Shown: one piece after another, positions 34,101-63,410 of the stretch
Numbering within the stretch: the first letter of the stretch is position 1
Layout of the letters: every line of letters begins with the position of its first letter
Source: Cheilinus undulatus
Taxonomy: Eukaryota > Chordata > Actinopteri > Labriformes > Labridae
Direction: 5' to 3'
NCBI RefSeq assembly: GCF_018320785.1
Contig: NC_054885.1
Span: 7,638,921 to 7,702,920 of the forward strand
DNA length: 64,000 nt
Notes under the pieces: model-generated
The model's database searches: none
What the model was told of the DNA's origin: nothing
Seen by the model: only the letters and a program-made list of their open reading frames with translations
Translations under genes and position numbers: made by a program

Positions 34101-37100
34101 CAGACCTTTGCCATTAGCTCTATCTCCCAATAGTACAGAATCCTTTAAAAAATTCCTGAATCCAGACGGTGAACCGGATCAGTCCCAAAATCTAATCAGT
34201 TCTTCCTTATGCCATTTCTGACATTTCCTGGAAATTTCATGAAAACCCATCCATGACTTTTTGAGTTATGTTGCTAACAAACTAATGAACAAACCCACCC
34301 GATCACATAACCTCCTTGGACTGGATAATCTGTAAACTAAGACGTTTTGTGACATAAATAAGAAAATCAGACAAGACACTGTACTTGCAAAGAAACCAAC
34401 ATTGTGGGGTTCAGATGCTCTCATGTCCATTATTCAAAATCCAAAAATGCTATTATTGTCCGCTAAATCGTTTATTAAGGTCCAAATTATAGTCGAGTCC
34501 CCACCGTTCCAGTGGCTTCTTCCATTTCTGCAGAAAAAGATGAGTCCTTCCAACAACACAGTGTCCAAGCTTTACCAGTGTAACAACCTCTGAGATCAGA
34601 GACTTCCACATAGTAACAGTTGGAGGGTCATCCATAATCCATTTCACCATTATTGCTTTGAAGTGTCTGTTCTTTTACATGAGTAAAATAGTCTTGTACT
34701 TTCCACCCCTAGTTAACACAAACAGCTCTGCCAATGCTAACTACTATATTAATGTCACATTAACTGCTGCGTTAATGCCAACTGTTGCGTTAATGCTAAC
34801 TGCTGTGCTAATACTAACTGCTGTGTTGATGCCAACTTCCACATTCAACTCTAAATGCTTTGTTGATGCCAACAGCTGCACTAATGCTAACAGCTGCATT
34901 AACGCTAATTGCTGTGCTTGTACTAACAGCTGTGCTAATGCTAACAGCTGCAACCCAATTGCAGTGAATCCGTCTGTTATCATTACTGCTTGGTTTTGCA
35001 CCTTGATGCTTCCTCAGCATGAAGCTCAGCTTGTTTCCAGTCTTTGGCAGAATTTTAGTCTCTTATTGACTCTGTTGATCAATATTAGTTACTAGTCAGG
35101 TTTGTTTTTCAGCTCTGTGTCGTGGTTTGCACCCCGGTTGTGCACATCTTCTCTGCAAGATGTAGACTGACTTGGTCCTAATCACTGTGTGCCTTGCGCG
35201 TTAGAAAGTGTGCTTTGGGCTGTTAAGATAGGGCCATGGGGTTAGTTTTCTCAGGGTTATCTTTCTAGAAGATGAAAGGGTTGATTTTGTGTGTTAAAGC
35301 TGATATATTTCAAGGCTAACTTTTTTTAGAATAGATAATATAAGGGTTGATTTTTGAAGTGTAGATTGTGTATTTGAGGGATAATTTTCTTGTTAAAGAT
35401 GGCAAATTTTAGGGTTACATTTCAGAGTTCAGATAGTGAATCAAAGGATTTTCTTTAGAGGAGATGATGCTAGGGTGCAGTTGTAGAGCTGGAGGGCAGA
35501 AGTTGTCATGTCTCTCTGTTTGCACACAAACTTTTTCTCTGCAGCGCTCAACATCATTGTCCCTGCACCTTCTTCTCTCCCTAATCCGGTCCACCTGGTC
35601 GACTCTTACCCTTACCTGTTCTCATCCTGGTTGATGGGATTACACCACCTTCCTCTGACCCTCCTTATATCCGGACCATCCCAAACAGGACTACTTTGAC
35701 ATCGTGAAGAACCCGATGGACTTGTCCACCATTAAGAGGAAACTGGACACGGGTCAGTACCAGGAGCCCTGGCAGTACGTTGAGGATGTCTGGCTGATGT
35801 TTAACAACGCCTGGCTATACAACCGCAAAACATCCCGAGTCTACAAATACTGCTCCAAACTCGCAGAGGTTTTCGAGTCGGAGATCGACCCGGTCATGCA
35901 GGACCTGGGATACTGCTGCGGGAGGAAGGTGAGATTAGAAGTGTTTCAGTGATTTTTAATTCAAGAGATGAGTAAATACTGCATCTGCAGGACTTCTAAT
36001 TTTGTTGCTGTGGTATCAAACATGTATGTATTGTTTCTACTAAAAGCCTTTTAAATTTTGAAATCCTGTTAATGTGACCATCTGTTTATTTAGTAGAACA
36101 ATTCAGTGGTATTGTCTCTTTATTTCTACAGTTTGAGTTTTCTCCACAAACTCTGTGCTGCTATGGAAAACAGTTATGCACCATCCAACGAGACGCCACA
36201 TACTTCAGCTACCAGAACAGGTGAGAGATATTCACAGTCTAAAGACAAAAGCATCACTTTTTGATGCTGTATTAAATATTTTTATCAGTTTGATCACCGA
36301 TATGTTAAATTTGGCTTCCTCTTGTTATCATGGCAACACCTCCTCATCCATAACTCACCTTTAATTTCCTTTGTGACCTCATTCATAAAGGGAGCTCCCT
36401 CTTCAGGACACAGACAGTTTCACATCATAATTTAAACCATGAAATATCAAATTGTTGATAAAACTAGAACCCCCCCTGGCAGTAATATGCCTTCAGAAGG
36501 AAGTGCTTGTAGGTCAAGCAGGTATAGCTCCCTAGAAGCTACAATACAGTTATTGCAGCCTCCCATTATGTAAGATTGCAATGACAGTTGTCTTAAAAGT
36601 CAAGTGTAGGTTCATGCCAATTTGATGAAATAACTCAATATATTTCTGAAATACTGTGCTCACAATATCTGAGGTTTTACCTCCAAAATCTCCCCAGTTC
36701 ATCCTACATTCAGATTAGACATTCATGCATAGTTTGTTGGAAATCTCAAAGCGTTCTTGAGATGTTCACAAGCGAATGGTGAACACGAACCCTAAAAGCC
36801 TTGAGGCTTTTTTTGAAGATTTGACCTTCAAAGTCTAACCAGTTCATCCTTAGGTCAGAGTGAACATTTATGCGAAGTTTGAAGACAACACTCTAAGAGA
36901 TGTCATATATACAAGTAAGAGGTGATAGTGAGGCTAGATTGTCTATAATCTTTGAACTATGAACTCCTCAAACCTAGCCTTTTTGATTCTTGAGACAAAT
37001 GGATATTGGTACAGGGTTAAAAGAGAGTATCTCAAAGCATTGTTGAGATATTGTGTTTACAAGAAAGGGATGAACATAAGGCCTAATGACCTTAACCTTT

Positions 37101-43100: not shown

Positions 43101-46100
43101 TTAAAAGTGACATTTGTAATCAGATATCAGGTTAGCTACAAACTAAACATTTTACTATAATAGCAGTAGTGAATAATTGTGTTTTTTTTTTAAACACACT
43201 CCTGACTCTGCTTTCTGCTCTGGTGGAGAATAATTAATTTCAGTATATCAATAATAAATACATCATTGCACTCTGCACAGTGTTTGCATAGTAAGACAGA
43301 AACCCAAGGCACAACTAGACTTGCCTTTGGCAGGCAGGAACCTAGAGTACAACAGGACTCATGTTGAAAAGGAAGCAACCTAGAGCAGAAACAGATTCCT
43401 GTTGAACAATCAGAAACCTCAGGCAGAACCAAGGCAGAAACCTGGGACTGACCCAAAATCGTCGAACAAAGACAACTCTTTTGCAGAACCAGGCTAACTG
43501 TTGGCAGGCAGATACCACAATGAAATCCAGAGTCATGATCAACTGGCAGAAACCTTGAACAGAACCAGACATTTGTTTAATAAGCAGAAATTTTTCTAGA
43601 ACCAGACTGATGTTGGACAGGCAGGAACCTTGAGCAGAACCAGATTCCAGTTGAATAGGTGAAATCATCAAACAACTGCATTTCTGTTAACCATGCAGAC
43701 ACTTTCGGGAGAGACAGAAAAATCGAGAAACCAAACAAAACTAGGCATATACTGAACTGACAGAAACGTCTAGCAGAACCTGGTTCAACAGGTAGAAACC
43801 TTTGGGGAAAAAACTGTTATGTTGAACAGACAGAAACTTTGAACAGAACCAGTCTAATCTTGTACAGGCAGAAACATGGGACAAAAAACTGTCATGTTGA
43901 ACAGAGTTCTCCAGAGACTCTCTCAACCTTGAGCAGAACCAGATTCCTGTTGAACAGGCAGAAACCTTAAGCAGAACCAGACTCATTTTGAACAGGCAGA
44001 AACCTTGAGCAGAACCAGACTCATGTAAGTGGCAGAAACCCTGATTGAATCAGGCTCATGTTGAACAGGCAGAAACGATTAGCAAAAACCTCATGTTAGA
44101 GCAGAGTTCTCCAGAGACCCTCTGGGTACACACACAAGTAACACCACTTGTTCACCTTGTTCTTCCTCATTCCTAGGTGTTCTTTGTCATCCGCCTCATT
44201 GCTGTACCCACTGCCAACTCGCTGCCCCCAATTGTTGACCCTGATTCCCTAATGGCATGTGACCTGATGGATGGGCGAGACGCCTTCCTGACGCTGGCAA
44301 GAGACAAACACCTTGAATTTAGCTCTCTACGGAGGACCAAGTGGAGCTCCATGTGTATGCTGGTGGAGCTGCACAACCAGAGCCAGGACCGCTTCGTCTA
44401 TACCTGCAACGAGTGTAAACATCATGTGGAGACACGCTTCCACTGCACTGTCTGCGAGGTGAGAATTAAGTTCAAATTTTTTTATTCTACTACATAACAT
44501 TCAGTGTATTAAAATACTCTAATTTTCTTTTCATCATCACTTAACCTAATGAAATAAAATGTTTAATTTTGCATGTTTCAATTGCAGAAGTATTGAATAT
44601 TATGTTCTCCTATCTCTGCAGGACTACGACCTGTGCATCACATGCTACAACACCAAAGGTCACGAGCATAAGATGGACAAACTGGGACTTGGACTGGATG
44701 ACGACAGCAGCAACCAGGCCGCAGCAGGAACTCAGAGTCCTGGGGATTCTCGCCGCCTCAGTATCCAGCGCTGCATTCAGTCTCTGGTCCATGCATGTCA
44801 GTGCCGCAACGCCAACTGCTCCCTGCCATCATGCCAGAAGATGAAGCGTGTCGTTCAGCACACCAAGAGCTGCAAGCGAAAAACAAACGGGGGCTGTCCC
44901 ATCTGCAAGCAGCTCATTGCTCTGTGCTGCTACCATGCCAAACACTGTCAGGAGAACAAATGTCCAGTCCCCTTCTGCCTCAACATCAAACAGAAGCTTC
45001 GTCAGCAGCAGCTGCAGCACCGCCTTCAGCAGGCCCAGATGTTACGGAGGAGGATGGCCAGCATGCAGCGGGTGGGACAACCTGGGGGACCTGTCATGGG
45101 GCTTCCATCACCCAATGGGACAACTGCACCAAGTACCCCAACATCAGCAGGAACCCAACCCTCAACACCCCAGACCCCAACCCAGACTATGCCTCCACAG
45201 CAGCCTCTGGGTCCTGGTTCTGGAGTCCAGCAGCAGCAACCAGGTGGGATGCACCCTCAACAACCCCACCATCCTCAGTTCCATCAAATGGCTGTTGGAG
45301 GAAGTGGGGTCGGGGGATTAATGAGCTCTCCTCAACATCAGCAGCAGCAGCAAGGTGGATCAAACACTCAGCAGCTCCAGCAGAACCCCAACAATCTGCC
45401 TCTGTACACCAGCAGACTTCCAGGTTCGTCCCCCATCCATCAGTCCCAGGGAAAACCAATCCTTGGCTCTGCAACGCCCCCACGGCAGCAGCAGTTGGGT
45501 GGAGCAGGAGGTGTTGGAGGGCAACAAAATCCCAGCCAAACCCCCCTACCTCAGCAGCAGCATCAGCCACAATCCGGTCCACCCCCTGCAGCTGTAGAAA
45601 TAGCAATGAAGATCCAGCAGGTGGCCGATGCTCAGAGGAAGATGGCTCTACAGAGGCAAACCACGCCAGGAATGATCCCCCCACACCCTCACCATCAGCA
45701 GGGTGCAGGTCAGCAGATGGGCATGGGACACCCAGGGGGTCCAGGGACTATGGGAAACCAAGGAATTCCCCCCCAGAACCCGGGGGCCATAGCAGCAGCC
45801 CGAGGTCACATGGATCCACAACCAGTAGCTTCATCAGGGATGATGGTCGGTGCAGGTGGTCCCATGCAGAAGGCCCCACAACAGGGCAACCTCCCCCCTG
45901 GTCAGCTCCCCTCTCAGGTCCAGCTTCAACAGCAAAGGATGGGGGCTCCACACCAAAACTCTCAGCAGCAGCAGTGGGGGGGTCAGGGGATGCCCCCCCA
46001 GCAGAGACAGGCCATGATGAACCAGATGAACAATCAAGCCATGATGGCAGCTCAGCAACATGGGGCTCAGCAACATGGGGCACACCAACAGACTCAGGGC

Positions 46101-47795
46101 CACACAGCCTTAATGAACATGGGACAGCAACAGGGTGCAGGTGGAGGGGTCCCAGCGGGAGCAATCCCTGGTGCTGCTGGTGGGAACATCCCCCAGGCTG
46201 CCTTGCAGGAGCTGTTACGAACTCTCCGTTCACCTAGCTCCCCGCTGCAACAGCAGCAAGTCCTTAACATCCTGCACTCAAACCCACAACTCATGGCGGC
46301 TTTTATCAAGCAGAGGGCTGCAAAGTACAAAGGGGGGGTGGGAGGACAGGCTGGTCCCCCTGGAAATGTGCCAGGAAGTGTTCCAGGAGGTCCTGGTGCG
46401 ACCGCAGGTCCTGGATTTAACATGGCTGGAGGGGGTCCACAGGTGAACATGAATGCTCCAGGGCAGGGGATGCACATGGGGGGCCAAGGGGGATCCAATG
46501 TTACCATGGCAACTATTGCTCAGCTTCAGCAAGTACAGCAGCAACAGCAATTACAACAACAACAACTGCAACAGCAGCAACAACAGCAACATTTGCAGCA
46601 GCAGCAGAGGCCGTTGCCTAATACTGTACAGCAGCAAGGGGTAGCGCAGATGGGAAATCTCAACAATCCCCAGTTCAAAGAGATTCTCATGAGACAACAT
46701 CTCCAGCAACAACAGCAGAGACAACAACAGCAGCAGCAAATGGCGGTAGGTCCAGGTCAGATGGGCGTAGGTCCTGGTCAGATGGTGGGAGGTCCTGGTC
46801 AGATGGTGGGAGGTCCTGGTCAGATGGCAGGAGGTCCTGGCCACCTGGGGGTAGGTCCTGGTCAGATGGGAGTAGGTCCTGGTCAGATGGGTGTAGGTCC
46901 AGGTCAGATGGGGGCAGGTTCCGGTCAGATGGGGGTAGGTCCCGGTCAGATGCGGGCAGGTCCCGGTCAGATGGGGGTAGGTCCTGGTCAAATGGGCGTA
47001 GGTCCCAGTCAGATGTCAGGAGGTCCCAGTCAGATGGGTGTAGGTCCTGGTCAGATGGGTGTAGGTCCTGGTCAGATGGGCGTGGGTCATGGTCAGTTCC
47101 AACAACCTCCTCAGGTTCAGAACTATGGCGGTCCCTCTGGCATACCGCCCAATGCAGGAGGCCAAGGTCCCCACTCAGACACTCCCGTACAGCCCCAAAT
47201 GGGTCAGCAGGGTTCAGGCTTTCCTTCAGCCCTGCAGCAGCAGCAGAGGCTCCACCCCCACATGCATCTTCAAGGGGTTGAGGGGGGGCCAGGTGGAGGA
47301 GGTCCCCTACAGCCCCCTCAGAGTGGCCCCCCAACCTCTCAAGCTCTCCTCCATCAGGCGCTTCACCAGAGACTGCTGCAGCAGCAGCATCTGGGTTCAG
47401 GGGGGTCTCCAGGCCAGCACAGTGGTGCCATGAGCCCTCAGCAGGTGGCCCAGTCCCCCCACCACCACCTGCAGGGTCAGACTCTGCCCCCCTCCCTTGC
47501 CAACCAGGTCCGATCCCCACAGCCTTCACCCAGACCTCAGTCCCAACCACCTCACTCTAGCCCTTCCCCTCGCCTGCAGCCCCAGCCCTCTCCGCATCAC
47601 ATCTCCCCCCAGGTGCAGACGGGGTCACCTCACCTGAACCAGCACCACCCAGGCCTGGTGCCCCCCCAACAGCAGAACTCTCTGGACCAGTTTGGACCAG
47701 ATCAGAGCGCCATGCTGTCTCAGATGGGCACCATGGGTGGTCTACACGGTCCTGGGGGGCCAGGTCAGGACACTCTGCGACAGACTCTGAATTAG
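12289..47795 (+). CDS. ep300: Histone/lysine acetyltransferase p300 (full gene)
   Basis: A nuclear transcriptional coactivator that acetylates histones (including H3K27 and H3K18) and many factors, and scaffolds activator-bound enhancers. Twenty-nine coding exons sum to 7983 nt, 2660 residues plus stop; human EP300 is 2414, and much of the excess lies in the Q/G-rich C-terminus. Every intron is GT-AG and every phase agrees. Domain order is the family's: N-terminal LSELL motif, TAZ1, KIX, bromodomain, RING/PHD, HAT, ZZ, TAZ2, NCBD. It is p300 rather than CREBBP because of PSAKRPKLS and [12 protein letters not shown] at the N-terminus and the acidic, SUMO-motif stretch before the bromodomain. 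Teleosts keep two paralogues (ep300a, ep300b); which one this is cannot be settled here. Exon groups are described separately. The reading frame is intact throughout. Confidence 0.97.
12371..17806 (+). other. ep300: ep300 intron 1
   Basis: The first 1.2 kb after exon 1 keeps a moderately CpG-containing, promoter-proximal composition; the rest is AT-rich. Contents: short homopolymer T tracts (13880-13910, 15000-15050), a diverged copy of the TTGTGCAATT dispersed repeat at about 15300 and another at 17340-17440. No coding exon, RNA gene or intact transposon is recognisable. Confidence 0.6.
19609..20019. mobile_element. hAT-like MITE in ep300 intron 3
   Basis: The ends form inverted repeats, CAGGGGGGACTG at the left and TAGCTACACCCCTG at the right. 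GGGGCCC and GGGGGCCC blocks sit just inside each end. It is about 410 bp with no transposase. The CAGGGG end is typical of hAT-derived elements. The exact target duplication is eroded. Confidence 0.6.
20175..22555 (+). CDS. ep300: ep300 exons 4-5: TAZ1 (CH1) zinc-binding domain
   Basis: Exons 20175-20463 and 22442-22555 encode residues 242-375. The TAZ1 fold runs from about 280 ([20 protein letters not shown]) to about 366 and binds activators such as HIF1A, CITED2 and STAT2 in the family. All zinc-ligand clusters are visible: [43 protein letters not shown] and CPVC. The intron between the exons splits the codon in CQVAHC, and it carries a hAT-like MITE and a LINE fragment without harming the splice sites. 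Confidence 0.95.
20541..20917. mobile_element. hAT-like MITE with CAGTGGTTCTCA ends, ep300 intron 4
   Basis: Left end CAGTGGTTCTCAAGTGG and right end CCACCAGCTGAGAACTACTG are inverted repeats of the widespread hAT CAGTGGTTCTCAA class. Flanks CACAAGGC and CACTAAGC match at six of eight positions, as expected of an old 8-bp target duplication. No coding capacity. Confidence 0.75.
20999..21650 (-). mobile_element. LINE fragment (reverse-transcriptase C-terminal part), minus strand
   Basis: The stretch starts with a CCATCCATCC tail and, read on the minus strand, resembles the 3' end of a common fish non-LTR retrotransposon: a TCACTCGGGG-type YLGV region, then a block equivalent to tyr-gly-his-glu-leu-trp and an arg-rich LRRV region, ending at a GGATAAG-like terminus. 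Frames are broken by substitutions and small indels, so it is dead. The clade was not determined. Confidence 0.7.
22670..23250 (+). CDS. ep300: ep300 exons 6-7: linker between TAZ1 and KIX
   Basis: Exons 22670-22888 and 23154-23250 encode about residues 376-481. The sequence is rich in Asn, Pro, Gly and Gln and contains the family-conserved [18 protein letters not shown] segment. No folded domain is expected here. Exon 7 ends in phase AG, completed by the first base of exon 8. Confidence 0.93.
23322..23376 (+). mobile_element. Left remnant of a MITE split by a LINE
   Basis: CAGATTTTCCCCTCATGATG and TGTGGGGAGGTTAGCCCT match the internal left part of the MITE family at 7718-8210 and 49927-50403. 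The sequence breaks off at AGCCCT (23371-23376), where the LINE begins, and resumes after the same hexamer at 24631-24636. Confidence 0.8.
23377..24630 (+). mobile_element. Truncated LINE (non-LTR retrotransposon) in ep300 intron 7
   Basis: The plus-strand frame at 23410-23859 encodes reverse-transcriptase blocks: [15 protein letters not shown] (motif A) and [20 protein letters not shown] (motif B). The catalytic FADD box expected after ILKF is absent: the frame reads [10 protein letters not shown] and stops. A second open stretch, 24059-24523, carries the C-terminal part ([20 protein letters not shown]). The 3' end is AATAAAGTTCTTGATTGATTG. It resembles the CR1/L2/Rex1 group of fish LINEs. 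It is flanked by AGCCCT on both sides, a plausible target duplication. 5'-truncated and inactive. Confidence 0.85.
24631..24942 (+). mobile_element. Right remnant of the split MITE
   Basis: Continues the MITE from AGCCCTGCTCCCAGG through GAGAGCCACATTTATTTCCTG, AATACTGGAGTGTTTTTTCA and CACAGGCATGTTTTGGG to its right end (AAAATATGTCATCTTTAA). It abuts unique ep300 intron sequence 138 bases before exon 8. The same junction is found at 50403/50404. Confidence 0.85.
25081..26309 (+). CDS. ep300: ep300 exons 8-10: KIX domain
   Basis: Exons 25081-25206, 25355-25472 and 26120-26309 encode about residues 481-626. The KIX three-helix bundle (about 504-590) reads [20 protein letters not shown], then [20 protein letters not shown], then the long helix [20 protein letters not shown]. 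In the family it binds phosphorylated CREB, MYB and MLL transactivation segments. Junction codons (CT+T for Leu, AGG complete) agree. The start of exon 8 and its upstream intron have a diverged duplicate at 50404-50567. Confidence 0.95.
27050..29759 (+). CDS. ep300: ep300 exons 11-15: proline-rich linker and acidic SUMO-motif region
   Basis: Exons 27050-27127, 27811-27884, 28339-28785, 29102-29323 and 29570-29759 encode about residues 626-962. The first part is Pro/Gln/Ser-rich and presumably disordered. Exons 14-15 are strongly Glu/Lys-rich with sumoylation-type sites ([17 protein letters not shown]), the position of the CRD1 repression region of p300. The acidic purine-rich exons are simple in sequence (GAGGAGGAG runs) and may vary in length between individuals. 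Confidence 0.92.
30230..30700 (-). mobile_element. Tc1/mariner-like transposase fragment in ep300 intron 15
   Basis: The minus strand reads [18 protein letters not shown], the segment around the second catalytic Asp of Tc1/mariner-type DDE transposases, with further degenerate homology downstream (VVDGWWMT). Stops and indels interrupt the rest. Neither terminal repeat is clear. An immobile remnant. Confidence 0.6.
30770..31040. repeat. Dispersed fish-type repeat in ep300 intron 15
   Basis: The block contains CCTTGGGCAAGGCACTAAACCCCCAATGGCTC and a TGAATTTCCCCTTG end, a combination I recognise as a common interspersed repeat in fish genomes. No intact coding region. The class is not determined. 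Confidence 0.45.
31199..35928 (+). CDS. ep300: ep300 exons 16-17: bromodomain
   Basis: Exons 31199-31317 and 35689-35928 encode about residues 963-1082. The acetyl-lysine-binding bundle begins [20 protein letters not shown] and continues through [22 protein letters not shown] to [19 protein letters not shown], whose Asn in LYNRKT is the conserved acetyl-lysine contact. The exon 16/17 junction falls in the ZA loop. A 4.4-kb repeat-filled intron separates the exons. The intron begins with an in-frame stretch ending in a second donor (see 31318-31350). Confidence 0.95.
31318..31350 (+). other. ep300: Possible alternative 3' extension of ep300 exon 16
   Basis: Directly after the expected donor (CCC/GTACGT) there are 33 in-frame bases encoding [11 protein letters not shown], followed by another donor, CTG/GTAAGG. 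Use of the second site would insert 11 residues in the ZA loop without shifting the frame. Only transcript evidence could show whether it is used. Confidence 0.35.
32370..32484 (+). repeat. Minisatellite, left arm (AATGCTAACAGCTG unit)
   Basis: Tandem 15-18-bp units such as AATGCTAACTGCTGC and AATGCTAACAGCTGTGTT. The same unit resumes at 34713 beyond an inserted element, so the two arms were once a single array. Confidence 0.85.
32485..34712. mobile_element. hAT-like element inserted in the minisatellite, ep300 intron 16
   Basis: Left end CAGGGGTGGAAAGTAACAG and right end GTACTTTCCACCCCTAG are inverted repeats of the fish hAT GGTGGAAAGTA class. The flanks are GTTAATGC on the left and TTAACAC on the right. 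The 2.2-kb interior holds no intact transposase. It contains a CTAT-type microsatellite (33190-33480) and two copies of a repeat with CCAGACGGTGATCCGGATCA at about 33725 and 34160. It may be composite. Confidence 0.65.
33190..33480. repeat. Degenerate CTAT/CTACC-type microsatellite
   Basis: Runs of CTATCTAT, ATCGACCTATC and CTACCTACTGACC units, imperfect throughout. Lies inside the hAT-like element. Confidence 0.85.
34713..34960 (+). repeat. Minisatellite, right arm
   Basis: Continues the AATGCTAACAGCTG-type units (TTAATGCTAACTGCTGTG, GCTAATGCTAACAGCTGC) after the inserted element. Open frames across it on both strands are by-products of a repeat length close to a multiple of three. Confidence 0.85.
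36132..40876 (+). CDS. ep300: ep300 exons 18-22: RING/PHD module
   Basis: Exons 36132-36220, 39730-39810, 40138-40194, 40416-40493 and 40809-40876 encode about residues 1083-1206. The discontinuous CH2 module contains [40 protein letters not shown] and FVCDGCLKQ, providing paired Cys/His zinc ligands. In p300 this module packs against the HAT and restrains it. All junction codons agree. Intron 18 (3.5 kb) is almost entirely a tandem repeat. Confidence 0.95.
36600..39060 (+). repeat. Degenerate ~145-bp tandem repeat filling ep300 intron 18
   Basis: About fifteen diverged copies. Each carries a GTTCATCCTTGAGTCAAAGT block, then GGATATTTGTGCAAAGT, GAAGAAAAT, a GAGATATCATGTTC segment and AACATGAGGCCCAGTGACC. 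The GGATATTTGTGCAAAG block recurs at about 37255, 37400, 37950, 38100, 38245 and 38390, giving a period near 145 bp. Not coding. Confidence 0.8.
39251..39277. repeat. (TTG)n microsatellite
   Basis: An uninterrupted GTT/TTG trinucleotide run in ep300 intron 18. Confidence 0.92.
40961..41150. mobile_element. Tc1/mariner-type MITE end in ep300 intron 22
   Basis: Begins ACAGCTGCATCTCAAAACAT, then TAGAATATCATGAAAAAGT, the start of a Tc1/mariner-derived repeat common in fish. An inverted AATATTAGAATATTAC segment follows 120 bases later. No coding part remains. Confidence 0.6.
41185..41350 (+). mobile_element. tRNA-derived SINE in ep300 intron 22
   Basis: A-box-like TGGTCTAGTGGTGAGG is followed by a B-box-like GGTTCAAGTC at 41255-41264, then the body CTTTCCCACATGTTGTTCCC, CTCTCTTCCTGGTTTCCTAC and an AATAAAGGCAAAAA tail. 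The same family occurs at 63487-63640. The promoter boxes are degenerate, so it is an old copy. Confidence 0.7.
41561..44458 (+). CDS. ep300: ep300 exons 23-28: acetyltransferase (HAT/KAT11) domain and first half of ZZ
   Basis: Exons 41561-41711, 41942-42202, 42363-42528, 42641-42808, 42892-43053 and 44177-44458 encode about residues 1207-1603. Residues linked to acetyl-CoA and lysine handling in human p300 are present: [11 protein letters not shown] (Asp/Ser), [13 protein letters not shown] (Trp) and [14 protein letters not shown] (Trp-Tyr pair, the general-acid Tyr). The basic autoacetylation loop ([20 protein letters not shown]) is in exon 27. Exon 28 ends within the ZZ finger ([18 protein letters not shown]). 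The domain looks catalytically intact. Intron 27 contains a satellite array. Confidence 0.96.
43265..44140 (+). repeat. ~38-bp degenerate satellite in ep300 intron 27
   Basis: About twenty imperfect copies of a unit like GAACAGGCAGAAACCTTGAG followed by CAGAACCAGACTCATGTT. The array ends about 35 bases before exon 28. Its reverse complement makes up a similar array in cbx7 intron 5 (52510-53880). Open frames across it are repeat artefacts. Confidence 0.88.
44622..47795 (+). CDS. ep300: ep300 exon 29: ZZ end, TAZ2, NCBD and Q/G-rich C-terminus
   Basis: The last exon encodes residues 1604-2660. It completes the ZZ finger ([18 protein letters not shown]), then TAZ2 (about 1643-1735; [58 protein letters not shown]), which binds p53, E1A-type and other activators in the family. 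The NCBD, which pairs with nuclear-receptor coactivators and IRF3, lies at about 2126-2175 ([34 protein letters not shown]). The remainder is Gln/Pro/Gly/Met-rich, with a CAG/CAA polyglutamine stretch and a 21-bp coding minisatellite. The stop is at 47793-47795. The C-terminus ends DTLRQTLN. Confidence 0.96.
46530..46612 (+). repeat. ep300: Coding polyglutamine (CAG/CAA) tract in ep300
   Basis: Mixed CAG and CAA codons encode glutamine runs broken by Leu and His ([20 protein letters not shown]). A second shorter tract lies at about 46700-46740. Such tracts are common in p300 and liable to length change. Confidence 0.9.
46749..47099 (+). repeat. ep300: Coding 21-bp minisatellite (GPGQMGV heptapeptide) in ep300
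   Basis: Sixteen full 21-bp units (46749-47084) plus a partial seventeenth encode GPGQMGV and variants such as [28 protein letters not shown] and GHGQFQQ. All units stay in frame. The region lies downstream of the NCBD. The length of the array explains about 115 residues of the size difference from human p300. Confidence 0.95.
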
Positions 47796-47948
47796 AACCC
47801 TTTAGACCTGATGTGACTGTGTCAAAGTCTCACCTGGATGTATTGTTCACCTGGAGAAGCCACTCAACTGGAGGGATCCCTCACCTGGAGGAGTCGCTCA
47901 CCTGGACAGTGTTACGGTTTCTTTTAGATGTTATTTAAAATGTTTTTG

Positions 47949-47954
47949 AATAAA
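47949..47954 (+). terminator. ep300: Proximal candidate poly(A) signal of ep300
   Basis: AATAAA followed by a T-rich stretch, 154 bases after the stop codon. A second AATAAA follows at 47989-47994. Confidence 0.5.
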
Positions 47955-48894
47955 GTTTTTTTGAATGAGCTTCCTATGGGAGATGAACAATAAATCAAAC
48001 AGTCAGTATATAATTTAGAATCAAATTAATCTAATTTATTGCTGTTAATATATTTTTTTCGTGGATGGGTTGTGGTGGGTTTCCCTCCCTCACCTCCACC
48101 TCTCAGAGAAAGGAGATATTTTCGGGGTAAAGCGAATTAAATATGTTTTGTATTAAGTCTTTAAGATTTAAAAGTGTTAGAGAATGAAAGAGATGATTTA
48201 ATGTAATGACCTTTTTATTTTTTATCATTTTTATTTCCCATCATGCAGTCTGTTTTTTTCTGCAGTGTGATGTGGATTATTCAAACATGAAGCATCTCTT
48301 CTACTCTGTGTTTTTGATTGATTTATTTATTCTCTGTGGGAGGATAATGTACCCTGAGACTGCTACGGTTCATATAGAAATATATTTTTGTTATTGTCTG
48401 TTAAGGTGTCGGCTGGGTCGGTGGATTATAATTCTTTAGCTGTGCGTGTTCAGGCAGAATAATTAAAGCTCAGTGTTTTTTCTCAGCTGTTTTCTGACTT
48501 TCTGATCGAACCCTCCTCCCTCGAATGTGTGCGCTCTCTCTCCTTTAAAGACACTTCACATGGAGCAGCATGGGGAGGGGGTGCTCACCTGTGTGCCTCA
48601 CACCTGGGATTTGAAACAAGGGGGCGGGGCTTCTGTTAGTGTTAGTAGGCTTCTTCTGTTCAGAGTTAACTGAAGATTTTTGATCCAAATGAACTGTTGC
48701 ACAGAAACGAGGAGAGCAGATGTCTGAACACTTGGTGTCTGTTTTTCCTCCTCGTCACCTTTGCTGCTTCCTCGGAACTTTAAGTACCCCCTGCTCTCCC
48801 TCCCTCAGACTCCTTCCTGTTTATCTTTCCGCCATTATTGGGAGTTTAATTTAATATTTTTTACTGTACAGAGGAAACTTCAATAGTTTTTTAT

Positions 48895-48900
48895 AATAAA
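48895..48900 (+). terminator. ep300: Distal candidate poly(A) signal of ep300
   Basis: AATAAA in TTATAATAAAATG, followed by a GTTGGTTCC stretch. It would give a 3' UTR near the length usual for vertebrate ep300. Confidence 0.5.
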
Positions 48901-48920
48901 ATGAAAATTACCATCACTGT

Positions 48921-49926
48921 TGGTTCCTGAATGTCTTTTTTCAGTTGCCCATGAGTAAGAAAAACAAATACATGAATTCTGATTCTTTCAAAAAACACTT
49001 GCTTGGTTGGCTCTTTTCATTTATGTATGCATGTGTTTATTTAAATTAACTTTACTGAATACATTCACAGTAAAGTTTAATTGGATTACAACTGCCCATC
49101 ATTGATTGGCAGTGATGCCTTTTCTAAGAGCAATGCGCCCTCTAGTGGGGACAAGTAACATTACAACCTTTTTCATCAAGGCAGAAATACTGGATGGATC
49201 TCCACACTTCCCCCCTCATCACAAGAGTGTTTCAGAGGGAATTTTTGCCCATTCATTCCGCAGAGTATTTATCCTAAATAAATTCAGGATTAAAATGATG
49301 GTTAAGTTTTATATAGCTGTGCATTAAACATGAACATTGTGGACCTTCTTTTGAGTTTACTTCTTGAGTTTTAAGCATGTTTTATCTATACACTATATGC
49401 CAAAGTTTCTGGACATTTTGATAATTATTGAGTTAAGGTGTCTAAAATCACCTAGCCATGCACTCTCTGTTTACAAACATGAGTGGTACTACATGGGTTG
49501 TTCTGAGAGCTCAGTGACTTCAAGTGGGGAAAAATACACGACTATTGGACTCAGGTAAAAGTACAGTTACTCTGGTTAAATTTTACTAAAGTACTGGTCA
49601 ATAAATCTACTCAAGTAAAAGTATTTGACTGGCAACTGAGGAGTCGATCTTTCCTTATTGGCAGGAACAACAAGAGAATGTTCAGGTACAATCACACCTC
49701 TATAATAAAGTAAAATACACAGCAAAATTGAAATTAAACACATTGAGTTGAATTTATAAAGTGGTTAGATCGGTCCGAAAGTGTTACATATTTTACATTA
49801 TGACAGAGCTGCAGTAATTCTTGAAAATTTTTGGTAAGGTGGGTCACCTCTGACAAGAACAAGAGTCAACCTCAAAGCAGCAAAGCAAGGCAATATATAC
49901 AGAAAGAATATGCACATTGGAGCACC
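48921..49926. other. ep300-cbx7 intergenic region, left part
   Basis: No gene. 49524-49650 contains GTAAAAGTACAGTTACTC and CTACTCAAGTAAAAGTATTT, the interior of a fish hAT MITE, here without recognisable ends. The remainder is AT-rich unique sequence. Confidence 0.5.
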
Positions 49927-50403
49927 TTAAAGGTCACATATTATGCAAAATACACATTATCAGGCTGTTTTATCAAAAATATGTGCCCTTGGTCTGTCGA
50001 ATCCCCCATGAATCAGAGCCCCCCCACCACCTTCCAGAAAATGTGTGCTGAAACAGACCGTACTCAGATTTCCCCCTCATGATGTCATGTGGGGAGTTAG
50101 CCCCGCCCCCAGGTTCAGTTGGCCATCCCCACTTGGACGAAAGTTCCGTCCTCCTCTCTGATCCTCCACTCAGCTGGCCAAACCCCACCAAACCCCATCC
50201 ATTAAGCCACATCTATTTTCTGAGAAGGGCAGAGTCAGGGGGCGGAGTTAACATTTAAAGCCACGTACACAGAAACAGCTCGTTCTCAGCAGGGCTTTTG
50301 CTAGACATGCAAAAATCAAATACTGGAGTGTCTTTTCAGCAACAAACTTCACAGGCATGTTTAAGGGACCTTGTCTTAAAAGGGTAAAATATGTGACCTT
50401 TAA
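49927..50403 (+). mobile_element. Full-length MITE with TTAA ends, ep300-cbx7 intergenic region
   Basis: Starts TTAAAGGTCACATATTATGC and ends AAAATATGTGACCTTTAA; same family as 7718-8210. Unlike the ep300 intron 7 copy it is not interrupted by a LINE. Its right end is followed by a duplicate of ep300 intron 7 sequence. Confidence 0.85.
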
Positions 50404-50567
50404 GACTTGTTGTCATGGTATCAAACCTTTGATTCTTACTCGAATCATATGGGAGCTAAAAAAAATGGGATAGCTATTAGTGCTGTGGTATAAATGGCAG
50501 GTCAGTTTCTTAATTGTCCTCTCTCCTCATTTTAGCCTGATGAATGATGGTTTGTTGTCTCAGAGCT
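50404..50567 (+). pseudogene. Duplicated fragment of ep300 intron 7/exon 8
   Basis: The block closely matches 24943-25112: CATGGTATCAAACCTTTGAT, TTACTCGAATCATATGGGAG, GTCAGTTTCTTAATTGTCC, a polypyrimidine tract with an ATTTTAG acceptor, then 32 bases of exon 8 (CCTGATGAATGATGGTTTG, from 50536). The homology stops there and a MITE right half follows. It differs from the parent by several substitutions and a short A-rich insertion. It lacks a donor site and the rest of the exon, so it is a non-functional scrap. Confidence 0.88.
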
Positions 50568-50804
50568 ACATCCTTTAAGGCACATCCATTTCCTGAGAGG
50601 GGCGGAGTCAGACAGCTCAGAGACTTTTAAAGCCACAAACACAGAAACAGCTCATTCTAAGCAGGGCTGAAACAGAAGCATTTCAGACATGGAAAAATCC
50701 AATACTGGAGTGTTTTTTTCAAGAACAAACTTCACAGGCATGTTTTGGGGACTTCTGAGACCGATATAAACTCCTCTTATAGCTGTAACTTATGTGACCT
50801 TTAA
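50568..50804 (+). mobile_element. MITE fragment (right half)
   Basis: Begins near CTTTAAGGCACATCCATTTC and runs through AATACTGGAGTGTTTTTTTC and CACAGGCATGTTTTGGGG to TTATGTGACCTTTAA. It directly follows the ep300 exon 8 scrap, so that scrap is enclosed by MITE sequence on both sides. Confidence 0.82.
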
Positions 50805-51099
50805 AGTACATGTATTTGAATGTAATAGCCAGGCGGCCGAAAACTTTTGTCTATATTGTGTACCTCCCCAGTTTGGTTGGTTGTTAATTGCCTGATATCA
50901 GCTTTGAAATGATAAGGTGGAGTCCAGTTTTAAAAGTATAAGCGTATTTGGTATTATAGAGATAGAGAATTTACTCCATCTGTGAGGTGCTAAATGAGCA
51001 AGAAATTGTGTAAGAGCTTAAATTTGACCATGGAAAAGATATAAGACCCATGTGAATTAACACAATAAACAAACATTGTAAAAAAGCTCCAGAACGCAG

Positions 51100-51931
51100 A
51101 TTATTTTGTACATGTTTATTGGAAATGCACTAAAATAAAACTTCATGTGTTTAAAGAGAATATAGCTTAACAGGCTTTAGAAATAGACACTCTTGGAGTT
51201 AATCTTGTACGTGTGACATGCATTAAGTAAAAGCTCATCACAGTCTAACATTAAACAGCAGAACAGCAGCAGAGTAAACTGATATCAGCGCTTTAAAAAA
51301 GCACAAAGTGCGAGAAAGAGAGAGACGATCAGCTGGTTATACAAAAATAGAACCAGGAAGAACATCAAACCCAGAAACAGACAGAAACATCACTGTGAAC
51401 TTCGTTTCGTTTTGTTCTTCCTCTAAAAGCAGAACATCACCAGAGCATCAGACGTTAATTCTTTCTGTTTTTTTATCCTTTAGCGACAGAAATAAACATC
51501 TTTAACAAACCACAAGACGGCCCTTTGTGGACGGACTGACGGCATGCAGTGAGCGCCGTGGAAGTGCTGAAAAAAAGTACAAACTGTAAGAAAGACTGAA
51601 CGGATCTGAGCACCTAGGACGACGAGATAAATATCTGCACGGAAGTACAAATGTGGAGTGTTAGTGTCAGACTGCAGCATGTTTGTCTCAGCAGCATCAG
51701 CTCAGATCCATCAGTACAGACGCTTTATGGAAGGTTTTATGGATGGTTTGAGCTGGTTTGTGGTCCTCGGGATTATATCGCCTCATTCATGAGCCATAAA
51801 GAAGCCCGCTCATTTTATTAAAGGCGATGATGTCTTCATTGAACTTTGTAGAAACGAGTGAGGCTTGTAAACGTGAATTATTTTACAAACATAAATATTT
51901 ACATGTATAAAATAAGAGATGACTACATCCT
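51100..51931 (-). other. cbx7: Probable 3' UTR of cbx7
   Basis: Non-coding sequence downstream of the cbx7 stop on the minus strand. The first good poly(A) hexamer, AATAAA, lies at 51120-51115 (minus), giving about 0.8 kb of 3' UTR. Purine-rich AGAGAGAG runs at 51315 are the only notable content. Confidence 0.55.
51115..51120 (-). terminator. cbx7: Candidate poly(A) signal of cbx7
   Basis: TTTATT on the plus strand is AATAAA on the minus strand, in CCAATAAACATG. Confidence 0.5.
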
Positions 51932-54900
51932 TTAAAATCCCTTAAAGAACCCTTCAGCCATCATTGCTTCTTTAAAAATCACCGTCAGCGAGTCGATTGT
52001 CACTTTGGTCACGATCACCTTCCCAGCATGCTCTGCTGATGTGGGAGGAGCCTGGGCCGGTGTCGCGATGGTGACATTCTCATTGTCATCTTTCTCCTGA
52101 ACGTTCGCCACCACCGAGGTCGTGTCTTCGATTCTCTCTAACGTCGGACACTCTGACTCCACCTCCTCCTCGCCGTCGCTCCAGTACGACCCGTCCCCAT
52201 TCGTCGCAGCATCTCCTGAGCACGCCTCTGGCGCAGAGATGCTGTCCTCTGATTGGTCACACACATATGATTGCATCTTTGTTGCTTCTGCACTGTCAGT
52301 CCACGTCTGTGTGCCTCCACCTGTTAGATGATCCACCTTCTCCTCCATCACTTCGTCCTGGACGTCCTGTCGCTCCAGCAGGGGTGGCGAGCTGCACTCT
52401 GATTGACCTGAAAGAGAGAGAGAGAGGTAGATGACTTTCCAGGTAATCAGAATAATACATACAGAATATTTACAATATAAAAGTTTAAAACACAAAATCG
52501 TTTCAGCAGATGGCTGTGCAACATGAGTCTGGTTCTGCCCAAGGTTTCTGCCTGTACCACATGAGTCTGGTTCTGCATGAGGCTTCTACTTGTCCCACAT
52601 GAGTCTGGTTCTGCATGAGGCTTCTACTTGTCCCACATGAGTCTGGTTCTGCAGAACGTTCTGTCTGTTCAATATGAGGATGGTTCTGATTAAGATTTCT
52701 GCCTTTTTAATGTGAGTGCTCTTCTGCTGCAGGTTTCCGCCTGTTAAGCATGAGTGTGGTTCCCCCCAAATTTTAGCCTGCATAAGTTTCTGTCTGTTGA
52801 ATATCAATCTGGTTATGTCAAAGGTTTCTGTCTGTTCAACATGAGTCTGGTTCTGTTTGAGGTTTCTGCCTGTTTAATGTGAGTCCTGTTCTGTTTTGGG
52901 TTTCTGCCCATTGAATATCTGCTGGTTCTTTCTGAGGTTTCTTCCTTCTTTAAGATTATATTTGAGTCTTTTTGTCTTTTTTTTAGACAGGAAAGGTGGA
53001 CAGAGAGAAGATATGGGGAAAGAAAGTGGCGAGAAGATGTGCATCAAACAGTGCCCAATCCTGTTTCTGCCTTTAACCTGAGTCTGGTTCTGCTTTAGTT
53101 TTCTGCCTGTTAAATGGGAGTCTGGGACTGTTTGGATTTTTTGCTCAATCAACATGGGTCTGGTTCCATTCGAGATTTCTTCCTGTTGAATAAAAGTGGT
53201 TTTGTTTGTTTTGTTCTGAGTCTACAAGTTCAACGTGACTGCTCAAGGTTTCTGCCTGTTGAATGTAAGTCTGGTTCTGCTAGAGGTTTCTGCCTGTTCA
53301 ACGTGACTTTGGTCATGCTCAAGATTGAGGCGTACTGAACATGAATCTGGTTCTGGCCACGTTTCTGCAAGTTCAACATGACTGATTCTGCTTGAGGTTT
53401 CTGCCTAATCAACATCAGTCTTGTTCCGCTTCAGCTTCTGCCTCTTGTATAGGAGTCAGATTCCATTCAACTTTCTGCCTGTTCATTAGAAGTATGGTTC
53501 CACTTGAGTTTTCTGTCTGTTTAACTGTAGTCTGGACTGCTCAAGGTTTCTGTTTAACAATAGTTTGATTCTATCAGAGGTTTCTGCCTTTAACATGAAT
53601 CTGGTTCTGCCCCAGGTTTCTGCCTGTTTAACATGACTAGTTCAACAGTAATCTGGTCTGCTTACGGTTTCTGCTGGTTAACCATTAGTCTGGTTCTGCT
53701 TAAGGTTTCTGTCTGTTCTACATGAGCTTTGTTTGAGATTTGAGCCTGTTTCACATGAGTCTACTTCTGCCTAAGGTCTCTGTCAATTCAAATAGAATCT
53801 GTTCTTCTTGAGATGTCCATCTTTTCCATATGAATGTGGTTCTACTTGGGGTTTCTGTCTGTTCAGCTTAAATCTCAACAGGACATCATGCAGTGTCTGA
53901 CACTAAAATTCAGTTATTTTGAACTTTTCACAGTCATTTTGATTTAAAAATAGTACATTTTAGTCTTTTTTCTTAATCTAACCGTATTCGCTGTCTTCTC
54001 GTCTCTCCTCCATAACGCTTTCAGTCTCCTGCTTCTCATTTTCAATGGTGCCACTCCACTTGTCCTCTATACTCTCCTCCTTCTTCTTTGGTGGTAGTCG
54101 GAGAGCTCTGAGCTGTGGTCCCCTCTTCCTCAGTTTGTTTCTCTGCCAGGTGTGCCGGCGGTACATGCCCGCTCGCTCGCCCTCCTCCACATCTGTGCTC
54201 ATGGAACGGGTGAGGGACAGACGCAGCCGAGGGGGAGGCTTCACTGCCACCTTGTGGGCGCTGCGGAGGTCCATGGCAAAGACATTCTGGACAGGAAAGG
54301 TGACAGTGAAACTTAGCTTTACAGGATATCAAGACTTGAGAACACCAGATTTAAACTGATGGTGCACCTGTAAAGTGACACAAAGTAAACTTTGACAAAA
54401 GGTAAGGCGTCTTTACCCGCAGGACCAGTTTCCTCGGTCGGAGCCCTTTTCTACGATAGGCCAGAGCTCTGATTTTTTCCTGACTGCGAGAGAAAAGAGG
54501 CAAAACAGAGTATTAAGCACAGAGTAAAGATGGAGAGAAACGGAGGGTGAGCTAGAAAACAAAAGTCATCCGTAAAATTGAGAATAAACACTAAATAGTA
54601 AAATAATAATTAATCAAATAACAATGAGTCACCTCTCTTCATAGGCGATGACCAGCCGAGGGTCTAAAATGTTATCCTCCGGTTCCCAGGTGCTGTACCT
54701 GCACACACAAACATGCACACACATTAAAATGTGATCTGCCACAGTTTATACAGAGGTGATGATCTCACCAGGCGATGACTTCAGCATTACTCACTTTTGT
54801 GGCCATCCCTGCCACTTCAGGAGATACTCAACGTTACCCTGAGGGGAGGGAGAAAGAGACAGGGTGGAGTCAGAGACGTCAGAGAAAGCCTGAACATTTC

Positions 54901-55873
54901 TACTGCAGAATACATGCAGTATTTCTCTACAGTGGCAATATATACTCTCCTATCTGTACAGTATATGCTGTATATTTAAATAAATGTAAGCTACCCCTTC
55001 CTTATACAGTATTTTATCTACTGAGGGGGAAGAAAAACACTATTTGAAAGTCACATATAACAAAATTCAAAGATTAAAATACATTTACCAGGAGGTAGTT
55101 ATGCATTTGTTAGCTCAATGCTAACACATAATAGAAAATAGCTAGGATAACTGCTAGCATCCTGACGGTTATCTCGTTTAAGTGCTGAAAGGTGAGTCAA
55201 ACTTTTCTTGAGTTCTAATGTTAAAATTATTCATTCATGATTTTTTTTTAACTTGCAACACATTTTTTAGCCAATCCTTTTTGCCCCTTTTGACATATTT
55301 GTGCCACTTTTAACCCATTTTGTAACATCTTGCCTATTTTTGCCATCCTTTTCCACATCTAATCGATTTTTGCCGTTTTTTGCCCTTTATTGCAAGAGTA
55401 GCTGGATGCAGGACCTCAACTTCATTACAGAAGTCAGATGAGAGCCGCCACATCTCATCTTCTAATACGGGAAGTCACTTGAACTAAGTGAGAGCACGGG
55501 TGTCTGTGGAAACGCAAAATATTTTGGGGTTTGGCGTACCAAACCATACCAAACCGAACTGAATCAAACCGGACCCGCTGATGGAAACACGGCTTAAATG
55601 TGTTCTTCGTTGTTTTCTTCATGCGTCGCCGCCATATTAATAGAGGCAGGTCTGCCATATAAGGAAATACAAGTAGATGAAAAAACATGAGTTTCTGGAC
55701 TAGAAAGCATGCCGATTATGGTAAATTTATTTCATTGAATCAATTTATGATCCAAATTCATGTATCAGACATAATATGCAATGGCAAAATGACTGGCTGG
55801 CCGGACGTTGGCGTTGCTGCTACGTATCGCAATACAAGTAGACAAGGAATACTTACGTTTTTTAGAATAAGCT

Positions 55874-55912
<39 letters not shown>

Positions 55913-58062
55913 GCATGATCAACACAATAAACGATGATATGTGTATAGTTATGTTTTATTTCAAACATATATATATATAGAATATAATATATATATGTAA
56001 ATTAATTGTGTTTCCTTGTATCACATTACATACTGGACCTGCCTCCGGCAACATGGCAGCAATGGAGACATCTGGCCAGCCAGTCAATCTGCCATCGTAT
56101 ATTATGTCTGTGCACAGTGATACCTGAATTTGGATCATAAATAGATTAATCAAAATAAATGTAATGTAATCTTTTCAAAATAAGTAATTTTTTCCATTAA
56201 AGTTTTCTCAGTTTCTTTATTTCCTGATATCCTGATGTTTGTGCACCTCATCGCTTAGCTTTGAAGTCTGACATTACTTTTTTTTTTCATTGTGCCCAGC
56301 CACATTGTCCAATCAAAAGATCATTCTGCTCCAAGAAAAAGGGTTTACATTTTGAAAAAGGCTATTTTGTAAAACAGCATAAATAATTGAAACTTTATGC
56401 ATTTATTTTGTTGCTTTGATAAGAGAGGATATTAATTAGGGCTGGAAAAATAATCTTACAGCTTTACATTTTCAACAATATTGCACCTGCAATTTAATAT
56501 GCAATTATTTTTTAAGCTCCTCATCTTACGTATTTCTCAAGAAACAAGCAATTAATCATTCTCTGTAATAAAAAACAATATTTGGTAGATTAAACTAAGG
56601 CTAAACAATTTTGAAAAAATATCTAGTTACAATTATTTTGATTCTGCAAATTTGATGACTTGTTGTATTGAAGGGAATGATGATTTGGGGTCTTTCTCAT
56701 CTTTAATAACACAAACAAGTACAGAAACAAGGAAAGCAGGATTTTTGCAAATTGTTCTCGAAAAAAAAATGAGACCGTTGTAATGTTTGCATGATGTGTA
56801 AGGCAAAACATGTCTGCCTCAAAAAATGTTATTTTGAAACACAAAAGAAATATTTTTACCTTAAGCGGTTTTAATCTAAATTTCGAATAATTGCCCAGCC
56901 CTAGCATAAATCAAGTTAAGAATAAAATACGGTTATCACAGCTTAACTTAACCACAATGGGCCCCCCATTTAGCAGAAAGCTCTCCCCTTTACCCCCCCC
57001 TCATGGGCAGCCCTGGTTGTAAGATGACAATAAAGTCTTTCTAATAAATTCAACCTGCTCAGGTGTGTTTCCTGAAAGTCTAGGGGAGGGAGAGAAAGAG
57101 AGAGAGAGAGAGACTGTCACTTTAAACTGTGGGTTGGTGAAGGGGGGGGTTTGTGGGTGTTGGGGTCAGTGTTGTCCATTCTAATGGTGCCCCCCCACCT
57201 CCCAGCATGACGTCATTGACAGCGGGGCCTCAAACAGCAGCTGTTTCTCTCGCAGCGGTGACGTCAACGCACACGAGCAGACTTCAACCGTGCACGCGAT
57301 CTTTCTGGAACATCACATCAAGGGGCGGGGACACGAGAGCATGTAAACAACGGCGAGTTGCGCAATTATTTAACCTGCAACGGTTCCCACATGCACACAC
57401 GCATAACACTACACCACAACAACAACTACAACCCGTCAGATAATTATTATTTTTATTATTATTTTAAAAAACATGGAGGAAAGTACTGTGTTTACGAGGA
57501 CAAAGGGTAGCTTTTCACTACAAATCATAATAAACCTAATAATTTCCGACTTTATATGATAAAGGTGACGTGTTAAAGTTATTTTAAAGTAAAACATGCT
57601 GCGTCACATTATTATCTTAATGGTTACTACTTTAATTCAAACCCCCTCTGCTGTAATTCATCAGCTCACCGTTACACAGCAGCAGGAACATTACGCAGCA
57701 CAACCCGCTGCTCCACACATACACTACTACAGCTGCGTGGGCTCCTTATAAACACGGTCACACCTGAGCTTTACACGGTGGGCTCCGGGATCAGACTGTA
57801 CAGAAAACTTGGACGCAGTTATTTTAAAGAATACGTCACTCCGCATCTTTGTTTTACGTACCGAGAGAGGAACATGCGTAGCCTAGTTTTTGTTGCGCGA
57901 GTACAGAGTGTGACACGGTGAGAATAACACCCCGTGACGTCACAAAACATTGAAAAATAAGTTATAAAGTGTAAAAACAGTCACAAATCTTACCTTTCTC
58001 ACCCTCTTCTTCGTTATTGACTCCACAGCGAACACCTGGTCACCTATTGATGACAGCTCCAT
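51932..58062 (-). CDS. cbx7: Chromobox protein 7 (Polycomb PRC1 reader)
   Basis: A nuclear reader of H3K27me3 that tethers PRC1 to chromatin. Six coding exons on the minus strand: 58062-57994, 54838-54795, 54698-54633, 54483-54417, 54286-53983 and 52407-51932; 1026 nt, 341 residues plus stop. All introns are GT-AG and phases agree. The chromodomain spans about 7-60: [20 protein letters not shown], with the aromatic cage F11, W32 and W35 ([18 protein letters not shown]). A basic stretch ([10 protein letters not shown]) follows at 69-78, then [10 protein letters not shown], a family landmark. The C-terminal Pc box, which binds RING1 proteins, is [18 protein letters not shown] with AEGFF near the end, closer to CBX7 than to CBX2/4/6/8. 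It is longer than human CBX7 (251) because of an acidic middle region. Teleosts have cbx7a and cbx7b; the paralogue is not resolved. Confidence 0.94.
52510..53880 (-). repeat. ~38-bp degenerate satellite in cbx7 intron 5
   Basis: Thirty or more imperfect copies of CATGAGTCTGGTTCTGC followed by AAGGTTTCTGCCTGTTCAA. This is the reverse complement of the ep300 intron 27 array (43265-44140). It ends about 100 bases from both neighbouring exons. A SINE-tail fragment interrupts it near 52975-53050. Confidence 0.88.
52975..53050 (-). mobile_element. Probable SINE 3'-tail fragment
   Basis: TTTTTTTTAGACAGGAAAGG, then GGACAGAGAGAAGATATGGGG, is the reverse complement of the CTCTCTTCC...TATCCACTGTCC tail of the tRNA-derived SINE seen at 63487-63640. 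No promoter boxes remain. Confidence 0.45.
55714..56168. mobile_element. Palindromic (foldback) element in cbx7 intron 1
   Basis: Two arms of about 200 bases are inverted copies of each other. CAATTTATGATCCAAATTCA and GACTGGCTGGCCGGACG on the left correspond to TGAATTTGGATCATAAATAG and CATCTGGCCAGCCAGTC on the right. The loop is a TA-rich microsatellite (55878-55990). No coding capacity. It probably moved as a foldback MITE. Confidence 0.7.
57208..57215. promoter_or_regulatory. CRE palindrome TGACGTCA
   Basis: A perfect full CRE in a CpG-containing patch of cbx7 intron 1, about 0.85 kb inside the gene. The sequence is shown; occupancy by CREB/ATF is inferred. Confidence 0.5.
57259..57266. 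promoter_or_regulatory. CRE palindrome TGACGTCA
   Basis: A second perfect full CRE, 51 bases from the one at 57208. Confidence 0.5.
57935..57942. promoter_or_regulatory. CRE palindrome TGACGTCA
   Basis: A third perfect full CRE, 52 bases inside cbx7 intron 1, close to the exon 1 donor. A one-off variant TACGTCA lies at 57832-57838. Confidence 0.5.
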
Positions 58063-62510: not shown

Positions 62511-63410
62511 TACAGTGGCTATAAAAAGTATTCCCCCACTTTTAAGTGATTTTATCAATCAAACATGGTCAATGTCATTTGGCGTAAACAGCCCTTTTCA
62601 AACCCAGCCACAAATTCTCTCTTGGATTGAGGTCTGGGCTTTGACTAGGCCACTCCAGAACATTCCCCTTTTGTTATTTTTAAAACATTTCTGTGTAGCT
62701 TTCTCCGTTACTTCACATCATAGTCTTGCTGGAAAATTAATCTTCTCCCAGGATTGTCCTGTCGATATTCTACCACATTCATTTTCCCCTCTACCTTGAT
62801 AAGCCTTCCAGTGCTGGCTGCTGAGAAGCATCCCCACAGCATGATGCTGCCACCACTGTGCTTCACAGTGGGGATGGTGTGTTTGTGGTGATGTGCAGTG
62901 TTTGGCATCTTGTCTGATGGCCAAAAAGCTCCATTTTGGTCTCATCAGACCAAAGAACTTTCTTTCCCCTTAAACTCTAGGGGATGTTCAGTGCCTTGGA
63001 AATGTTTTTGTATCCATCTCCTGACTTTGCTTAGAGTGTTCTTTTGTCTTCATAGTGTAATGGTAGCCAGGAATACTATTTAACCAGTGACTGGAGCATC
63101 CAGACACTTTTGTCGTTATATCACAATCACTTGAGACACATTCACTGCACTTGGGTGATTTCACTAACAGTGAGACTATTAGCACAAATTGGCTTGACCT
63201 CTGTAGAATTAGGTCAGTCACTTTAAAGGGCGTGAATATTTATGCAGTCACTTAATTTGACATTATTTAAATTTGTTTAATCAACATTACATTGTAGAAA
63301 TCAGTTTTCATTTTGACATTAAAGAGTTTTTCTAGTCTTTTTTATATTAAAAAAATCCAAATTATATTGATTGAAACATACGAGGGGTGAATATCTTTTA
63401 TAAGCACTGT
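62511..63410 (-). mobile_element. Internally deleted Tc1-like transposon
   Basis: The left end TACAGTGGCTATAAAAAGTA and the right end GAATATCTTTTATAAGCACTGT are the inverted terminal repeats. On the minus strand, 62708-62945 encodes a recognisable Tc1 transposase segment ([29 protein letters not shown]) split between frames. At 900 bp it is well short of a full Tc1 element (about 1.6 kb), so part of the gene is deleted. Inactive. Confidence 0.88.

Follow-up and report, generated by a model that had tools for sequence, protein, structure and literature searches.

A decayed copy of an ep300 splice acceptor enclosed by MITE sequence downstream of the gene, possibly left by error-prone break repair

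Results

Gene neighborhood and composite structure

The gene on the + strand of the window (the whole 64-kb stretch of DNA that was analyzed) is ep300. The first 136 residues of its last-exon open reading frame (ORF) scored 233 bits against a p300 chain and 210 bits against a CREB-binding protein chain in the PDB, and the same ORF carries the domains Creb_binding and zf-TAZ; ZZ falls slightly below the cut-off. The stop codon lies at 47795, and the numbering of intron 7 and exon 8 used here is that of the first-pass annotation. Downstream of the gene we found a composite of 878 bp (49927-50804) that consists, in order, of TTAA, a whole MITE, TTAA, a piece of ep300, the right half of a MITE and TTAA. 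Because a minus-strand ORF at 51932-52585 has a CBX7_C motif near its end, ep300 and the cbx-like ORF seem, from the sequence, to converge, with the composite between their 3′ ends. The features on which the analysis draws are as follows.

7718-8210, + strand: reference MITE outside the composite, 493 bp, with TTAA at both ends (sequence comparison)
23318-24630, + strand: left remnant of the ep300 MITE (about 23318-23376) and the LINE that splits this element (about 23377-24630) (sequence comparison)
24631-24942, + strand: right part of the MITE in ep300 intron 7, the putative donor end, with TTAA at 24939-24942
24943-25112, + strand: donor flank matching the copied block, comprising the end of ep300 intron 7 and the start of exon 8, an exon that encodes the start of the KIX domain
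49927-49930, no strand assigned: left outer TTAA of the composite, a putative target-site duplication with partner TTAA at 50801-50804
49931-50403, + strand: MITE A, with both termini (AGGTCACATA.../...TATGTGACCT) and some internal deletions, 70% to 7718-8210
50404-50535, + strand: copy of the last part of ep300 intron 7, including the pyrimidine tract and the AG acceptor, 9/125 mismatches to 24943-25080 in the global alignment
50536-50567, + strand: copy of the opening 32 bases of ep300 exon 8, 4/32 mismatches to 25081-25112 in the global alignment
50568-50804, + strand: MITE B, present as a 3′ half alone, closed by the right outer TTAA (50801-50804), 81% to 24716-24942

Two minisatellites were seen in the same neighborhood. 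One is coding and lies within the last ep300 exon (46740-47096), where about 17 copies of a 21-base unit give in-frame repeats like MGVGPGQ. The other has a 38-base unit and occurs at 43332-44076, upstream of the last ep300 exon, and as its reverse complement at 52514-53867, by the cbx-like ORF; related arrays therefore flank the composite on both sides.

The block is a duplicate of the ep300 intron 7/exon 8 boundary

The claim of the first-pass annotation that 50404-50567 duplicates 24943-25112 holds. Global alignment of the two intervals gave 144 matches and 13 mismatches over 157 aligned bases, with 20 gap columns, and blastn of the block against the window matched it to 24945-25112 with 81.1% identity, gaps counted, and an E-value of 4.4e-44. 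The boundaries given for the exon were also correct, the first copied exon base being 50536 and the copied exon part being 32 bases long (source 25081-25112). Both the pyrimidine tract and the acceptor AG are preserved, the acceptor reading CAG in ep300 and TAG in the copy. The exon whose first bases were copied encodes, when the start of the following exon is added, the start of the KIX domain (Pfam E = 1.9e-14).

The two trivial causes that the annotation had named for such a match, low complexity and a dispersed repeat, were each considered. Searches were run with an E limit of 1e-3 with dust off and of 1e-5 with dust on, and the block match was the same with the low-complexity filter on or off; low complexity was accordingly rejected as its cause. 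These searches returned only the two copies, with no third in the 64-kb window, and on the donor side lies an exon that codes for KIX sequence; within the window we thus also rejected a dispersed repeat as the source of the block. For scale, of 500 164-mers drawn at random from the window, 37 had a second copy at E ≤ 1e-20, some of them falling in the block and the MITEs themselves and the rest in tandem arrays or in other pairs of repeats. Repetition by itself is commonplace in the window, and what makes this pair distinctive is its exon content and its exact junction with a MITE.

The block is fused to the same MITE end at both loci

Alignment of the two loci, which had been proposed with the original claim, matched the MITE end as well as the flank. 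The junction between them falls at the same base in both (24942/24943 and 50403/50404), right after TTAA, as the annotation had described, and a word that spans MITE end and flank, CTTTAAG[AT]CTTGTT, has just two + strand occurrences in the window, at 24937 and 50398. Given this shared junction, joint copying of MITE end and flank is well supported. The sequence before MITE A (49800-49925) had no blastn match in the window at E ≤ 1e-3, and the copied segment therefore starts inside MITE sequence. At the far side, ep300 homology ends at 50567 and is followed directly by MITE B, the second MITE fragment of the annotation; judged by eye, donor and MITE have about 1 base in common at most at this junction (50567/50568). 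The shared junction and the outer MITE termini with their TTAA bear out the view that an ep300 piece was copied with a MITE end and is enclosed by MITE sequence. The block, its ep300 source, its same-base fusion to a MITE end, the outer termini with TTAA and the second MITE half can all be read directly at the locus.

The MITE family

The reference copy (7718-8210) has TTAAAGGTCACATAT at one end and the reverse complement at the other. It and the composite (49927-50804) are both flanked by TTAA with nothing further duplicated, as in TTAA-target (piggyBac-like) MITEs, a provisional grouping made on the target site. MITE A closes with TTAA at 50400-50403 and, together with the left outer TTAA, spans 49927-50403 (477 bp, as against 493 bp in the reference, which is a single copy and not a family consensus). 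It overlaps MITE B by more than 200 bp of the element. A further MITE right end, D2, lies at about 2189-2388. The LINE inside the ep300 intron MITE has a reverse transcriptase domain and the end TTGATTGATTG, and AGCCCT is common to both of its edges. The left terminus of the ep300 MITE was not recognizable; a search allowing up to 2 mismatches found no left-terminus word nearby. Beyond the window, one exact MITE 23-mer was absent from viral_contigs and another from genome_contigs, and blastn of the copy at 7717-8212 found none in phages or plasmids; these are non-animal collections, in which absence says little. Exact MITE-end words were not found in the open-licence literature.

Origin of the right end of MITE A

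The sequences are compatible with descent of the right end of MITE A from the ep300 MITE. Over the last 134 aligned bases the two differ at 15 positions, the lowest count of 10 pairs, and 15/134 in the MITE against 13/157 in the flank fits descent because descent predicts equality. Over the whole right half the divergences are about equal, all near 11% (MITE A/ep300 21/193, MITE A/D2 16/147, ep300/D2 18/164), and the closeness of MITE A to the ep300 MITE over that length is therefore not special. Against descent, a GGGGGCGGAG stretch near 50240 in MITE A is missing from the ep300 MITE.

A tree of five MITE right ends was a star, with all 15 topologies within 0.45 log units and two topologies lacking a MITE A/ep300 pairing within 0.0001 of the best. 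The tree has no power here and was rejected as a demonstration of an ep300-MITE origin for MITE A. We also ran a mosaic test, looking within MITE A for a change from B-like to ep300-like sequence; its permutation p-value was 0.19 with all sites and 0.06 without two poorly aligned stretches, and, not being significant overall, the test was likewise rejected as a demonstration of a switch. Split-point tests of MITE A with those parents gave p = 0.03 in 1 of 6 cases and 0.10-0.73 in the others. With the 7.7-kb MITE used as a parent, p was 0.56 and 0.65. An earlier split-point table, in which p ranged from below 0.001 to 0.10 for MITE A versus ep300 and was also small for pairs without MITE A, proved unreliable, since D2 and the stretch at about 50239-50250 are misplaced in the automatic alignment, and was dropped.

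Discussion

With a confidence only a little above even, we read the composite as a decayed, non-coding duplication produced by error-prone break repair. A MITE would have existed first downstream of ep300, between the outer TTAA sites, and a double-strand break or stalled fork would have hit its right half. Ectopic repair would then have taken as its template the related element in intron 7 of ep300, some 25 kb off, and copying would have overrun the end of the template MITE into 164 bases of ep300 intron and exon before the new strand was released and joined to the broken MITE's right half with little or no homology. We infer the break, the direction of copying, the derivation of the MITE A right end from the ep300 MITE and the absence of any part for a transposase. 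In favor of repair, donor and acceptor lie in cis, and the copy includes intron, so that it is not a processed retrocopy. Against it, the distance between them is long, at 25.3 kb, and the MITE right half occurs twice, an outcome not expected of simple break repair; for this the half would first have had to be copied from the sister molecule, ahead of the switch, unless a second MITE was involved. The first-pass annotation had offered recombination between MITEs or their aberrant excision as mechanisms. Repair or recombination through MITE homology fits the anatomy better and aberrant excision fits it worse, neither being proven; repair is our best guess for the route, and aberrant transposition is a possible alternative.

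The event is of a known kind, a repair-mediated duplication or Pack-TIR, with a layout unlike the cases accepted by the published screens. Pace et al. (2009; PMC2671141) describe captures in interrupted TEs, with 80 cases in zebrafish and, in human, 824 of 1,136 captured pieces having a donor within 5 kb, the distant ones not being confidently repair events; mean captured length is 162 bp in the <5 kb class and 302 bp in the distant one, and Table 2 of that paper includes repair duplications with partial exon/intron donors. The ep300 composite is like these in being a short piece from the same chromosome captured in a TE, with an exon/intron donor of a type known there. The composite differs in that its donor is 25 kb away, outside the confident <5 kb class, and in that what was captured includes another copy of the end of the TE itself. 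That screen asks for an inserted sequence with one other place of occurrence only; within the window, the block has one other copy. By a further rule of that paper, the two pieces of the TE must meet to within 30 bp on the consensus and neither exceeds 95% of it, whereas here MITE A is full to its end and MITE B begins at about mid-element. With a second TE end present, the first TE piece reaches the end of the element and overlaps the second, so the 30-bp rule would drop the composite.

Animal Pack-TIRs were surveyed by Tan et al. (2021; PMC8277862), who favor gap filling for single-copy cases and report donor and acceptor in cis in 59.8% of 281 Pack-TIRs and within 15 kb in 160 of the 281. 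Set against this figure and the 824/1,136 within 5 kb of PMC2671141, a donor distance of 25.3 kb is long for the class. As in a Pack-TIR, non-TE sequence with an identifiable parent in cis (ep300 24943-25112) lies between two pieces of one TIR element, here between the left terminus of MITE A (49927) and the right terminus of MITE B (50804). Unlike the accepted Pack-TIRs, this parent has an element of the same TIR family right beside it; parents with a TE within 100 bp were excluded from the screen, whose authors say that such cases may be missed. A layout of whole TE, donor flank and TE half would thus be lost in both screens as they are described, owing to the rule on TE-adjacent parents in one (PMC8277862) and the 30-bp rule in the other (PMC2671141). 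Among the open-licence titles listed, none reports this locus.

Other histories of the composite deserve consideration. In end bypass (transduction), the then-complete ep300 MITE would have transposed together with its right flank by use of a later end, into or beside MITE B. Fusion of MITE end and flank at the same base in both loci is what this would leave, and PMC8277862 describes such a model for P elements, in which TE end and flank are likewise copied together, alongside the authors' remark on missed cases. The copied flank, however, ends against the middle of MITE B, a TE half and not a terminus or terminus-like sequence; the left half of MITE B would also need to have been lost, the left outer neighbor matches neither MITE nor ep300 in the window, and the left terminus of the ep300 MITE is unrecognizable now, though possibly present then. 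We regard end bypass as unlikely. Somewhat less probable still is that the composite was built elsewhere and arrived as one transposing Pack-MITE between its outer TTAA ends, with further copies in existence: the outer ends are indeed intact MITE termini with TTAA, but the 64-kb window holds no other copy of the composite, and nearness to the donor favors local capture. The same orientation and the position 25 kb downstream of the donor might instead point to the remnant of a larger tandem or segmental ep300 duplication, later eroded and invaded by MITEs. This we think improbable, as the block and the MITE are the only links between 47796-51931 and the rest of the window (self-comparison at E ≤ 1e-10, dust on), and both edges of the block lie in sequence of one MITE family.

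The first-pass annotation had also suggested that the copy could serve as a cryptic terminal exon of ep300, and a role as a regulatory element of that gene may be weighed with it; we give either very little credence. The sequence would allow such an exon to the extent that the acceptor AG and pyrimidine tract are kept and an AATAAA lies at 51064, 528 bases downstream. Speaking against it, eleven AATAAA or ATTAAA hexamers come earlier (47949-49733), between the ep300 stop and the block, that at 51064 being the next after the block. The penultimate ep300 exon apparently ends on a whole codon (TGCGAG before GTGAGA), and joined to 50536 it would read Pro-Asp-Glu-stop; taken in the exon 7 phase, the copy gives SLMNDGLLSQSYIL-stop. 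Conservation is no higher in the exon scrap than in the intron part, the numbers being small. We saw no sign of selection on the copy in these comparisons, and the composite is likely to be without function.

Error-prone repair, if it was the route, left here a readable fossil of one event, in which the junction base marks both the end of the element and the onward copying. We tentatively suggest that ectopic repair could use dispersed MITEs as homology landing pads and overrun the end of the element into its flank. If so, such overrun would move splice sites and exon starts of host genes to other MITE sites, and the frequency of the layout of whole TE, donor flank and TE half may be underestimated because the filters of both published screens would drop it. 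Should the layout be common, short gene pieces with splice acceptors would be spread in MITE-rich genomes and filtered out by current screens. The present case is a single locus, and no effect is shown for it.

Other repeats in the window

Three further repeats were recorded apart from the composite. The intervals 33662-33760 and 34097-34195 form a direct duplication of 99 bases with 89% identity, and 6097-7149 and 62581-63410 contain pieces of a dispersed repeat that are 73-77% identical and partly inverted. The stretch 55714-56171 has a 67% match to its own reverse complement and may be a palindromic element.
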